Shown here: positions 1 to 3,301 of the stretch, in pieces
Numbering within the stretch: position 1 is the stretch's first letter
Layout: the number at the start of each line of letters is the position of its first letter
DNA from: Promethearchaeota archaeon
Lineage (GTDB): Archaea; Asgardarchaeota; Lokiarchaeia; Sigyniarchaeales; SOKP01
DNA: 64,000 nt
Direction of reading: 5' to 3'
NCBI GenBank assembly: GCA_019058445.1
Contig: JAHPZA010000006.1
Span: 372,001 to 436,000 of the forward strand
Program-made: the position numbers and the translations under genes
Notes under the pieces: model-generated
What the model was told of the DNA's origin: nothing
The model's input: only the letters and a program-made list of their open reading frames with translations
Database searches by the model: none

Positions 1-165
1 GGTTCCAGAAACCTCTGTTTGGTATTGTGTAAACTGGGCACCAAGCGTCATTACATATGCAGCGTCAAATTCTCCTTTAGTATACTTTTTTATTAGAGAG
101 GTTTTACCAACGGCACCATCTCCAATAACGGTTATTTTATAAACTAATCCCCTCTCATCACTCAT
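1..165 (-). CDS. Rab/Ras-like small GTPase, N-terminal part (cut by window edge)
   Basis: Only the first 55 codons lie in the window; the frame is open to base 1. It starts at the ATG whose complement is at 163-165. The visible part carries a classical P-loop, GDGAVGKTS (residues 15-23), after a hydrophobic first strand (VYKITVIG). A switch-I-like stretch with T40-L41-G42-A43 follows, equivalent to the Rab/Ras T-I-G motif. This is the normal Ras-superfamily layout and differs from the two aberrant GTPases at 9.1-10.8 kb. Asgard genomes encode many such GTPases; their roles are mostly unknown, with membrane or cytoskeletal signalling as the family expectation. It is transcribed leftwards, and the membrane ubiquitin-fold gene behind it runs the same way. 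The remaining G motifs and any C-terminal anchor are outside the window. Confidence 0.88.
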   Translation of the reverse strand, partial: MSDERGLVYKITVIGDGAVGKTSLIKKYTKGEFDAAYVMTLGAQFTQYQTEVSGT

Positions 166-358
166 ATTATCCACTTATAAGATTTTTTAGTAATTGAATT
201 TAATTGTTTTTTAAACCTAAGATAATATCCTCTTTTTCTATTTATGAAAACAGTTTTTCATTATTAATAAAAAAAAGTAATTTTAAATCTTTACAAAAGG
301 AAAATTAGATTTTTAAAAATGTAAATCAAAATATTTAACATAAATTCTATTTGTAATT

Positions 359-1186
359 TTATTTTTGAGGTATTCTTGAAGGAATCAAAACAATTTCATC
401 CTCAACTCTTAGATTATAATCTTTTATTTGGGCGTTTTCATTCATAATTATACCTCCTGTAGATAAGAGAAAATCTTCCAAATTGTAATCAAATATAACT
501 GCCAATTGATCCTTAACTACATGTACAAATTCATTTGATTCTATATTGATTGTTTTCTTCTTCTCCTTTGATTCAATTAATGAGATTGCATAAACAGAAA
601 TAATTTTTGGCTCTTCAACAAGACTCATTGGTGGAATATATATGATTTCTTCGTCAGTTTTATAAAGGTTCTCAAACATGCTTTTAATTAAATTACTTCT
701 TTCTTCCTGAGTAAAATATAGTAATTCTTTAATGAATTGCTTTTTATCAACCTCCGATAAACCTAAACGATTAATTTTAGCCAATTCATTAGGGTTGAGC
801 TCTGTAAAAATAAAATTCTCAATAAAAGGCATCTCTTCATAAGATTTATCTGAATCAACATATTTCTGAATAGATGGCATATCATCCATATAAACTTCGA
901 TAATATCAGTCGTTTCCTTTTCTTTAAGTAAACTTTTTCTCTTCTCAAGTGCCCTTACCTTAGACACGAATTGTTTTTTTCCAGTTAACTTATCATCCAT
1001 ACTTTCATGATGTATAACTGTATAAATCGTGCCTGTAGATAACACTACCACACTCCCTATAACCAATATGAATAAGAAAAGAGGATTCCCAAAGAAAAAA
1101 ATGAGATAGAATAGTATAGAAACAGCACATAGAGCTATTAATACCCCAATTCTTATTATTTTTTTTTTTGATGTATTTGTACTCAT
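359..1186 (-). CDS. Membrane-anchored protein with C-terminal ubiquitin-like domain
   Basis: 275 residues. Two hydrophobic segments (about 10-32 and 36-58) form an N-terminal hairpin anchor. A charged helical middle follows (about 65-190), then a C-terminal beta-grasp-like domain (about 195-272). The last 45 residues align by eye with the soluble ubiquitin-fold protein at 2201-2554: both have the order D-F-x-L-S-[TS]-G-G, a short acidic turn, Y-[NS]-[LV] and a final [LV]-L-I-P strand. This is the ubiquitin pattern (acidic turn, DYN-like turn, terminal strand). The protein ends in PQK, without diglycine, so it is probably a ubiquitin-fold interaction domain and not a conjugated tag. It lies between the small GTPase and a winged-helix gene on the same strand. 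The ubiquitin-fold call rests on similarity between the two local proteins and on pattern; no profile search was possible. Confidence 0.7.
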   Translation of the reverse strand: MSTNTSKKKIIRIGVLIALCAVSILFYLIFFFGNPLFLFILVIGSVVVLSTGTIYTVIHHESMDDKLTGKKQFVSKVRALEKRKSLLKEKETTDIIEVYMDDMPSIQKYVDSDKSYEEMPFIENFIFTELNPNELAKINRLGLSEVDKKQFIKELLYFTQEERSNLIKSMFENLYKTDEEIIYIPPMSLVEEPKIISVYAISLIESKEKKKTINIESNEFVHVVKDQLAVIFDYNLEDFLLSTGGIIMNENAQIKDYNLRVEDEIVLIPSRIPQK

Positions 1187-1270
1187 AATTTTATCATCAT
1201 TTTCTCACGATTATTATATTCATTTTCTTCAATAAAAATGCAATAGGATTAAATATGAAGTAATTCAAAT

Positions 1271-1942
1271 TCAATCTCTACGAACAAATTTTACAGCTTT
1301 TAAGTACCTCTCATTATTTAATTTATACAAATTTCTTGATTTTTCTTTTTCTACTTCTACCAACTTCAAATTAGTTAAAGCTTCTAAATATTTCTTAATA
1401 GTATTATGATTTTTCTTAAGACCATCGGCTATCTCTGTAATCTTGAGCGGTCTTTCATTCTTCATAAGTGTAATAATAGACTGGACAATATCATTTGCCA
1501 TATAATAGTATAATTGATCATATTTAGGATTTGAATCAAAATTGAAGAATATGCATCGATTCCTGATTTTTTTAGATCTGATAAATTGAAATTTTTCCAA
1601 AGCTGAAAGATGCCACAAGGCCAAATTGCTTCCTAAATTATGTGCTTTCATTATTTCATTGATGTTTTTACCAGGATTTTGTTGTATGTATTTATAAATT
1701 TCATTCCTTGTTGGATTATCAATAATATCCTTTTTCATTAATTTATTTCCAGAAATTATTATCCTTTTCTTGATTAAGGATTTAATAATGAGTTCGATTT
1801 TATTCTTATTTATATCAGGGTTATGTTTAACCCTGTTATTTACAAATTCCACTATATCTTTCATTGAAAAGAAAGGCTTCTTTGACAAATATTCTCTAAC
1901 TATTTCTAAAACTATCTTTTCAGCATTATTCGAAGAGCTCAT
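1271..1942 (-). CDS. Winged-helix transcriptional regulator (multi-domain)
   Basis: 223 residues with two clear winged-helix units. One is at about 75-135 (NPTRNEIYKYIQQNPG, then NINEIMKAHNLGSNLALWHL), an ArsR/MarR-like arrangement. The second is at about 150-215 (ITLMKNERPLKITEIADGL, then TIKKYLEALTNLKLVEVE). The N-terminal 70 residues look like a third helical/winged segment. Such duplicated winged-helix proteins are common archaeal regulators. It is divergent from the soluble ubiquitin-fold gene, and the 258-base spacer probably holds both promoters, so it may regulate the neighbouring ubiquitin-fold/RING genes; that is inferred from position only. No metal or ligand site is obvious. Confidence 0.75.
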   Translation of the reverse strand: MSSSNNAEKIVLEIVREYLSKKPFFSMKDIVEFVNNRVKHNPDINKNKIELIIKSLIKKRIIISGNKLMKKDIIDNPTRNEIYKYIQQNPGKNINEIMKAHNLGSNLALWHLSALEKFQFIRSKKIRNRCIFFNFDSNPKYDQLYYYMANDIVQSIITLMKNERPLKITEIADGLKKNHNTIKKYLEALTNLKLVEVEKEKSRNLYKLNNERYLKAVKFVRRD

Positions 1943-2200
1943 AATCTAATATTTTACTCGTGCCAAATAGCCCGGTTTTTAATAAGCTTCTTTCTTTCTA
2001 AGTTAAAATATTATGTTTATAAATTATATTATTCCTTCACTCAATTTATAGTATTGTTATTTAAGAAACTTTGAGTGTTTCAATTTATTTTTTTCAGAAT
2101 AATAAAAATCTTCACATTTATTCCTAATTCATTCAAATAATCCCAACAGTATCATTCTATTAACTAAAACAAATAAAAAAAAATAAAATGAGTGATTATT

Positions 2201-2554
2201 ATGAGTTTTAAAGATGAATTTGATGAGGATTTAGGAGATGGTATTGAAGTCCCTGTACCAGTATCAAAAACTCCAGCTGGCAAGACTCCCACAGCAGGAG
2301 GGAGTAATATTGCTCTCTATTTCACATCTACAATTGGTCCTGGTGAGAAAAAACAGAAGTTAACCGTTAACGACGGCAATGCCGTAAGCGATATCAAGCG
2401 AACCATTGGAAATATTTTTGGTTTAAATCCGGCTGATTTTCACCTATCCTCGGGTGGAGTAACTATGGATGATGGTTCATCCCTAAATAATTATAGTGTA
2501 TCCAATGGAGACGAAGTCCTCTTAATCCCTGCTAGTACCGCAGGATATGAATAA
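2201..2554 (+). CDS. Soluble ubiquitin-fold protein without C-terminal diglycine
   Basis: 117 residues from the ATG at 2201, which has a GTGAT Shine-Dalgarno-like sequence four bases upstream; a GTG at 2192 in the same frame is possible but less well placed. Residues 1-35 are a disordered, acidic then Pro/Thr/Gly-rich tail. Residues about 36-110 form a beta-grasp-like domain. Its second half, from LSSGGVTMDDG to NNYSVSNGDEVLLIP, follows the ubiquitin pattern better than the MoaD/ThiS pattern. The C-terminus runs past the last strand as ASTAGYE, with no Gly-Gly, so conjugation would need unusual chemistry or does not occur. The RING-H2-like gene follows 78 bases downstream on the same strand and the two are likely cotranscribed. 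The C-terminal domain of the protein at 359-1186 is its closest local relative. Confidence 0.75.
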   Translation: MSFKDEFDEDLGDGIEVPVPVSKTPAGKTPTAGGSNIALYFTSTIGPGEKKQKLTVNDGNAVSDIKRTIGNIFGLNPADFHLSSGGVTMDDGSSLNNYSVSNGDEVLLIPASTAGYE

Positions 2555-2632
2555 AGGTTTTATAACTTTCCAAATTTAATTCTTTTTTTTTTATATTATT
2601 TTTAAAATAAATAAAAATAGTGGTGCTTAGAA

Positions 2633-3301
2633 TTGGCAAAAAAGAAATGGTTTGCTAAGCTAGCTAATTTATTTTCAAAACCACAAAGCACAAATCATAG
2701 AAATTCTCGCACCACTGTAAGCTCTCCTTCAAGATCAATAAATCGTACTACTTCTCGCACTGCTACGAGAACGCCTACAAGAACAGTAAATCATAGAACA
2801 ACTCGCACTACTATGCGCACTCCTACAAGAACTGTAAATCGTACAATATCTCGCACTACATCACGTACTACAGTACACTCTAATACTAGCCCTATTAATC
2901 GAACAAGAACAACGAATACCCAAACAGTATACAGGCAAACGACATCGAATTCAAAATCAGTTCATAGAACTTATACTAGTGGAAGGTCAGCAGTTACAAA
3001 AAAAACATATAGTTTAAAGAAGTTAAGACCAAGGGGTACAATTCTTTACAAGGAAGATTTCAAGTGTATATTTTGTTTTCAATTACCAAAACTTCCTGAA
3101 GATGAGAAAAGAGGAATTGTTATTTGTCCTCACTGTGGACACCCAGCACACGCTGATGAGTTTAGAAGTTGGTTAAAAAGCTCGAGACTTTGTTCTCGAT
3201 GTGATCGACCTTTCTCGATTACCTTCATTCAAAACATAGAAATAATCCCGACGCCTGTGTATATAAAGGCTATGAAGATTATTATGAAAAAAGGAAAATA
3301 A
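2633..3301 (+). CDS. RING-H2-like zinc-finger protein with long Arg/Thr-rich N-terminal region
   Basis: 222 residues, TTG start with a GGTG upstream. Residues about 15-130 are low complexity, dominated by Arg, Thr and Ser, with an imperfect repeat around TRTPTRTVN seen at least three times. The C-terminal part (about 140-200) has Cys/His pairs in RING order: CIFC, then CPHCGHPAH, then WL, then CSRC. CGH-x2-H followed by a Trp and C-x2-C is typical of RING-H2 E3 ligases. The usual sixth ligand (Cys after the second His) is Glu here, and an extra Cys precedes the C-G-H, so zinc binding may be rearranged. The basic tail could bind nucleic acid, membrane or an acidic partner. It sits directly behind the ubiquitin-fold gene, which favours a ubiquitin-like role, but no E1, E2 or JAB protease gene is in the window. 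Confidence 0.68.
   Translation: MAKKKWFAKLANLFSKPQSTNHRNSRTTVSSPSRSINRTTSRTATRTPTRTVNHRTTRTTMRTPTRTVNRTISRTTSRTTVHSNTSPINRTRTTNTQTVYRQTTSNSKSVHRTYTSGRSAVTKKTYSLKKLRPRGTILYKEDFKCIFCFQLPKLPEDEKRGIVICPHCGHPAHADEFRSWLKSSRLCSRCDRPFSITFIQNIEIIPTPVYIKAMKIIMKKGK

Follow-up and report, generated by a model that had tools for sequence, protein, structure and literature searches.

Does a small archaeal cluster of ubiquitin-fold and RING genes, with no E1 or E2 beside it, take part in protein tagging, or does it serve another purpose? The question is raised by a locus of Promethearchaeota archaeon (GCA_019058445.1, 4.6 Mb), whose close relatives are all metagenome-assembled genomes of Lokiarchaeota/Lokiarchaeia. 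The locus lies in a stretch of 64,000 nucleotides, here called the window (contig JAHPZA010000006.1, G000:C6:372001-436000), and encodes a soluble ubiquitin, a RING-like protein, a membrane protein with a C-terminal ubiquitin fold (memULD) and a winged-helix regulator (wHTH). An original prediction made from the letters of the window had read these genes as a binding or sorting module and not as a tagging pathway. All four open reading frames (ORFs) were found where that prediction had placed them, and a survey of gene neighbourhoods showed their arrangement to be kept in 36 related loci, so that it is not due to chance. Our analysis shows the locus to belong to a predicted ubiquitin-like conjugation system with a complete set of E1, E2, RING and JAMM, whose genes occupy two separate chromosomal sites in this genus. 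We also consider it moderately probable that memULD is a non-conjugatable membrane ubiquitin-fold sensor which, together with wHTH, adjusts the expression of the ubiquitin genes.

A predicted conjugation system at two chromosomal sites

The soluble protein is indeed a ubiquitin. Against the Pfam ubiquitin model, 2201-2554(+) gives E 1.3e-4, under the gathering score; its paralogue on contig C10 of the same genome, 71% identical, passes that score (29.6 bits, E 5.9e-7), and the family profile of the soluble ubiquitins aligns with human ubiquitin in hhalign (probability 76%, E 2.2e-5) and with Caldiarchaeum ubiquitin (E 2e-3). Ubiquitin profile matches occur in 83 of the 196 sampled genomes of the phylum, representing 22 of 58 genera. 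That neither ubiquitin fold of the window carries Gly-Gly had been noticed correctly, but the soluble one ends in STAG-YE with a single Gly, and in the alignment with human ubiquitin Gly115 falls on Gly76 and an Ala on Gly75. The tail LLIPAS[T/I/V]AG, followed by 0-4 residues, is kept in 22 aligned family members; an AG tail (STAG, IAG or VAG) with at most five residues after it is found in 62/63 soluble ubiquitin matches of 36 named loci, and in more distant Asgard families it takes the form IP[AVHST]STAG, apart from isolated variants such as SRAG. Judging from these tails, the soluble ubiquitin is probably a conjugatable single-Gly modifier, often made as a precursor.

The product of 2633-3301(+) matched no Pfam model above threshold. 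AlphaFold models its residues 133-222 confidently (predicted local distance difference test, pLDDT, 89.6), nearly all of the 50 listed Foldseek matches are RING or U-box E3s (best E 1.6e-3), and the ligand alignment gives the pattern C-x2-C-x16-C-x2-C-x4-H-x13-C-x2-C with seven invariant Cys/His and an invariant Asp/Glu. The three analyses together identify a RING fold with zinc ligands. It had been called RING-H2-like, of which the RING part stands, but the literal RING-H2 spacing C-x2-C...C-x(1-3)-H-x(2-3)-H-x2-C...C-x2-C is not matched by this protein. The same Thr/Arg linker is carried by the membrane RING encoded on C10.

It is on C10, and not in the window, that the enzymes are encoded, in the order proteasome subunit, coiled-coil RING, coiled coil, ubiquitin, E1, E2, JAMM and membrane RING. 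With them, the modifier, E1, E2, JAMM and RING of an archaeal or eukaryote-type ubiquitin system are all present in the genome. The C10 enzymes match ThiF (E 1e-60), UQ_con (E 1e-24) and JAB (E 1e-13) in Pfam, and the catalytic motifs are kept in the orthologues of E1 (ThiF fold and catalytic Cys, 57/59), E2 (HPN and Cys, 53/55) and JAMM (50/52). The original prediction was right that no E1 or E2 lies within the 3 kb of the locus, but in relatives these genes are adjacent to it. The order in genera g3, g7 and g8 is FtsZ ... cc (coiled coil), Ub2, memULD, wHTH, Ub (ubiquitin), E1, E2, JAMM, membrane RING; the wHTH-memULD pair directly adjoins Ub-E1-E2-JAMM-RING in most relatives, this latter order recurs in most distant Asgard loci examined, and E1 is present in 29/36 related loci. 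In three of the five genomes of the window's genus (g1), memULD-wHTH-Ub-RING stand at one site and the E1 operon at another. Among family genomes with a full-length memULD, 39 of 40 have E1, and the only one lacking it breaks off at a contig edge. Fourteen genomes have E1 but no memULD, and both are missing from genus g2, which makes memULD an accessory of the system. The Rab-like GTPase gene at the edge of the window (1-174, truncated by that edge) is real, as had been predicted, but it is not a conserved neighbour in related loci and we reject it as part of the unit.

Several other genes were observed in addition. The proteasome subunit and coiled-coil RING genes (L007 3605-4225 and 4285-6372) adjoin the E1 operon in g1, g4 and g9, and a link of tagging with the proteasome is possible. 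Further E2-like and JAMM genes stand near each other on contig C9 (G000:C9:220442-222382 and C9:274832-278128), which suggests that the genome has at least two ubiquitin-type systems, and a UFL1-like gene (E3_UFM1_ligase, E 1e-16) lies at G000:C9:653248-653961 (L246). Adjoining the ubiquitin operon on C10, L007 13770-14660 encodes a protein of 296 aa that has a CxxC motif close to the N-terminus and, at the C-terminus, a ubiquitin fold with the tail STAG-FF; the versions of some genus members end in SRVAG or SRVAE. Near the ubiquitin operon of other Asgard families, proteins of about 580-600 aa (L132 10072-11814, L133 1910-3718, L128 11119-12849) have the same ubiquitin domain at the C-terminus with SRAG or STAG tails. 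An unrelated second small ubiquitin-like protein on C9 (L008 9171-9395) ends in AGGI, that is, Gly-Gly and one residue.

memULD, its winged-helix neighbour and a shared element

The prediction of a two-helix membrane protein with a C-terminal ubiquitin fold was borne out for memULD by two hydrophobic segments in a Kyte-Doolittle scan and by a beta-grasp that AlphaFold models with a pLDDT of about 90. The top Foldseek matches of this beta-grasp are Caldiarchaeum ubiquitin (first), ISG15, ubiquitin and SUMO, with E down to 4e-7 and a TM-score, normalised to single-domain targets, of about 0.8-0.9. None of the 36 memULD tails has a C-terminal Gly after the last strand, and without it memULD cannot be activated or conjugated; by this evidence of its tail it is not a conjugatable modifier. 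The tails, which end in IPSRKEKN, IPSRIPQK and similar, have no prenylation motif (CaaX) at the C-terminus either. Outside its own family, the rest of the phylum sample matches only the ubiquitin part of memULD. A match to EMC3/TMCO1 (E 1e-3) is below the curated cut-off and covers the transmembrane (TM) part and the start of the tail domain; since it is confined there and the tail domain is a family of its own, we reject this identity.

The neighbour of memULD, 1271-1942(-), has winged-helix domains (HTH_24, E 1.8e-8), in agreement with the divergent regulator predicted there. What the original prediction missed is that the two appear to be a regulator pair that has paralogues at other places of the genome. 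Alignments show the middle domain of memULD to be also the cytosolic tail of large surface-type proteins of the same genome, built of ectodomain, TM segment and tail domain. Only eight wHTH paralogues exist in this genome at E<=1e-6, and six of them adjoin tail-domain genes; in a genome that we take to hold roughly 4,000 genes, a given gene would adjoin one by chance in well under 1% of cases. In the family, a wHTH gene lies within three genes of 21 of the 34 listed tail-domain proteins, a list in which one protein of the own genome is counted in two loci. Four more tail-domain proteins, all from genome G007, continue after the tail domain, within one ORF, into an almost complete wHTH, so that ectodomain, TM segment and wHTH stand in one chain. 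The remaining tail-domain proteins without a wHTH neighbour are mostly at contig ends, the true exceptions being L223 and two small proteins. Because of this fusion and adjacency, we argue that tail-domain proteins and wHTHs work jointly, and memULD with wHTH may be seen as one variant of such membrane-anchored regulator pairs, in which a ubiquitin fold takes the place behind the tail domain that the wHTH has in the fused paralogues. One tail-domain protein of the own genome (contig C9, L056 1270-4215) is a 981-aa beta-helix surface protein; it has a TM segment and, in the cytosol, a zinc-finger-like segment as well as the tail domain known from memULD, and it adjoins a wHTH paralogue.

The divergent region between the wHTH and ubiquitin genes measures 248-276 bp in 28 of 29 loci and 207 bp in the other, and it contains a conserved 15-nt block, CTTCAMAWTHATTCC. 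With at most one mismatch, this element stands about 100 nt ahead of the operon ubiquitin gene in 28/31 loci and, with at most two, upstream of memULD in 26/35 loci, usually at 72-77 nt. The element was derived from the ubiquitin side of the aligned loci; the memULD copies were left out of the derivation, and the memULD side is therefore an independent check. It was seen upstream of 3/175 control genes, a near-absence for which a general promoter element was rejected, and of 0/31 Ub2 and 0/35 wHTH genes. In ubiquitin operon loci without memULD it occurs in 1 of 19, from a genome whose memULD lies at another place. A direct palindrome as operator was rejected, as the AT-rich region has only weak short inverted repeats.

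Table 1. Coordinates of the features of the locus, counted from the first nucleotide of the window.
Feature	Position	Strand	Description
memULD	359..1186	-	275 aa; two-TM hairpin, helical tail domain, C-terminal ubiquitin fold ending IPSRIPQK; predicted non-conjugatable
memULD TM segments (residues 13-31, 36-54)	1025..1150	-	Kyte-Doolittle scan; AlphaFold helices 5-33, 35-48
memULD tail domain (residues 88-180)	647..925	-	alignments; common to cytosolic tails of surface proteins
memULD ubiquitin-like fold (residues 195-269)	380..604	-	AlphaFold and Foldseek
wHTH regulator	1271..1942	-	223 aa; winged-helix matches; paralogues adjoin or are fused to other tail-domain proteins
Divergent intergenic region wHTH/ubiquitin	1943..2200	.	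length and two blocks conserved in 29 loci
Element copy CTTCATATTTAATCC, 2 mismatches	1246..1260	-	74 nt upstream of memULD start
Conserved element CTTCAMAWTHATTCC, window copy CTTCACATTTATTCC, 0 mismatches	2110..2124	+	91 nt upstream of ubiquitin start
Soluble single-Gly ubiquitin	2201..2554	+	117 aa; Gly115 (codon 2543-2545) at Gly76 position, then Tyr-Glu extension
RING-like protein	2633..3301	+	222 aa; Thr/Arg-rich linker and C-terminal zinc domain; TM-less relative of operon membrane RING

A proposed circuit and its competitors

We propose that E1, E2, RING and JAMM would act on the soluble ubiquitin, from which YE of STAG-YE would be removed first, with the JAMM protease of C10 as the likeliest candidate for this step, and that the RING-like protein of the window may be an accessory E3, a TM-less relative of the operon membrane E3. 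The ubiquitin fold of memULD would touch E1, E2, RING or JAMM non-covalently and so sense the state of the pathway; the tail domain would relay this state to wHTH, and wHTH, by acting on the 15-nt element that precedes the ubiquitin gene as well as memULD, would close a feedback loop. In evolutionary terms, and more tentatively, at slightly less than an even chance, a non-conjugatable membrane ubiquitin fold may have evolved in Lokiarchaea as the sensor of a two-protein regulator controlling the ubiquitin operon, ubiquitins of the ancestral Asgard type using a single Gly.

Several points weigh against the proposed circuit. The element was not found near the C10 operon of the window genome, so that feedback here would reach the local ubiquitin and RING genes only, and the loci carrying the element are related, so that their counts are not independent events. 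The genera g4, g5, g6 and g9 manage with an E1 operon and no memULD, which is hence not essential. The contact between the memULD tail domain and wHTH is predicted from linkage and fusion, and AlphaFold models this tail domain with low to moderate confidence.

The main competing explanation, which we regard as rather unlikely, is that memULD is a docking factor like the plant MUBs and UBL3, which by binding E2 or the membrane RING through its ubiquitin fold would concentrate conjugation there, wHTH being a co-inherited neighbour or regulating memULD alone. It is favoured by memULD and the operon RING being both membrane proteins and neighbours, but it leaves unexplained the tail domain common with surface proteins, the linkage and fusion with wHTHs and the shared element; moreover, memULD has an N-terminal TM hairpin, whereas the anchors of MUBs are C-terminal lipids.

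We hold it very improbable that the locus represents an early UFM1-type pathway with a single-Gly modifier and a short C-terminal extension. The tail geometry of the soluble ubiquitin, IPxxx[AV]G plus two residues, resembles that of UFM1, and the genome has the UFL1-like gene mentioned above, but the profile matches ubiquitin and not UFM1, the E1 lies closest to UBA1/UBA2/UBA3 (E about 1e-38), with UBA5 a far more distant match (about 1e-15), and the E2 is a canonical UBC with HPN kept. As neither UFM1 homology nor a UBA5-type E1 or UFC1-type E2 was found, a UFM1 origin is rejected.

Slightly less credible still is that the genes of the locus arose as a copy of the C10 operon and are now decaying, with no present function. 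The main enzymes are located elsewhere and the window RING has no TM segments, as this would have it, but the ORFs are intact, the ubiquitin, memULD and RING are 63-86% identical in two sister genomes of the same layout (L059, L060), and non-coding blocks are conserved. The least credible is the binding or sorting module unrelated to tagging, for which the lack of E1 and E2 in the window locus and of Gly-Gly had spoken, but which is contradicted by the synteny, since relatives have E1, E2 and JAMM next to these genes and the own genome encodes them as well, and by the single Gly kept in the soluble ubiquitins.

Comparison with known systems

Asgard archaea are the closest known prokaryotic relatives of eukaryotes, and the locus bears on how their ubiquitin system is used and controlled. 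Its compact gene set offers a testable membrane link, consisting of a membrane ubiquitin fold, a membrane RING, a regulator and a putative operator, and the conserved single-Gly tail puts in question Gly-Gly as the original form in this lineage. If the sensor reading is true, it would describe a feedback circuit in which a copy of ubiquitin reads out the conjugation machinery. In the open-access literature that we searched, neither the memULD/wHTH pair nor its element nor the single-Gly tail of Asgard ubiquitins was described.

Archaeal and Asgard ubiquitin operons (PMC5654768, PMC6043591, PMC9192718), membrane regulators (PMC10269533) and eukaryotic membrane ubiquitin folds are already known. 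The ubiquitin operon of Caldiarchaeum subterraneum comprises Ub, E1, E2, RING and Rpn11 (PMC5654768, PMC6043591); as far as searched, these two papers make no mention of a membrane ubiquitin-fold protein or a wHTH pair in the operon. Common to both systems are the set of E1, E2, RING and JAMM, the ubiquitin fold and a precursor modifier with a C-terminal extension. However, Caldiarchaeum Ub has Gly-Gly and nine residues, whereas the Lokiarchaeal ubiquitin has a single Gly (STAG) and 0-5, and the Lokiarchaeal operon RING is membrane-anchored, unlike that of Caldiarchaeum. Lokiarchaeota ubiquitin genes form a discrete cluster according to a study on Asgard ubiquitin-ESCRT clusters, which, as far as searched, makes no mention of memULD, its regulator or the single-Gly tail (PMC9192718).

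Among eukaryotic proteins, memULD is like MUB/UBL3 in being a membrane-tethered ubiquitin fold that is not a conventional conjugated modifier. It differs in its N-terminal TM hairpin, its extra tail domain and the co-encoded transcription regulator, and we claim no membership of that family. Membrane transcription regulators are known from the ToxR/CadC type and from archaea (PMC10269533), and they couple a membrane protein to a DNA-binding domain, as is predicted for our pair and as the four fused paralogues do in a single chain. Unlike these regulators, our pair consists of two proteins, memULD and wHTH, and as its sensor we predict a ubiquitin fold in the cytosol.

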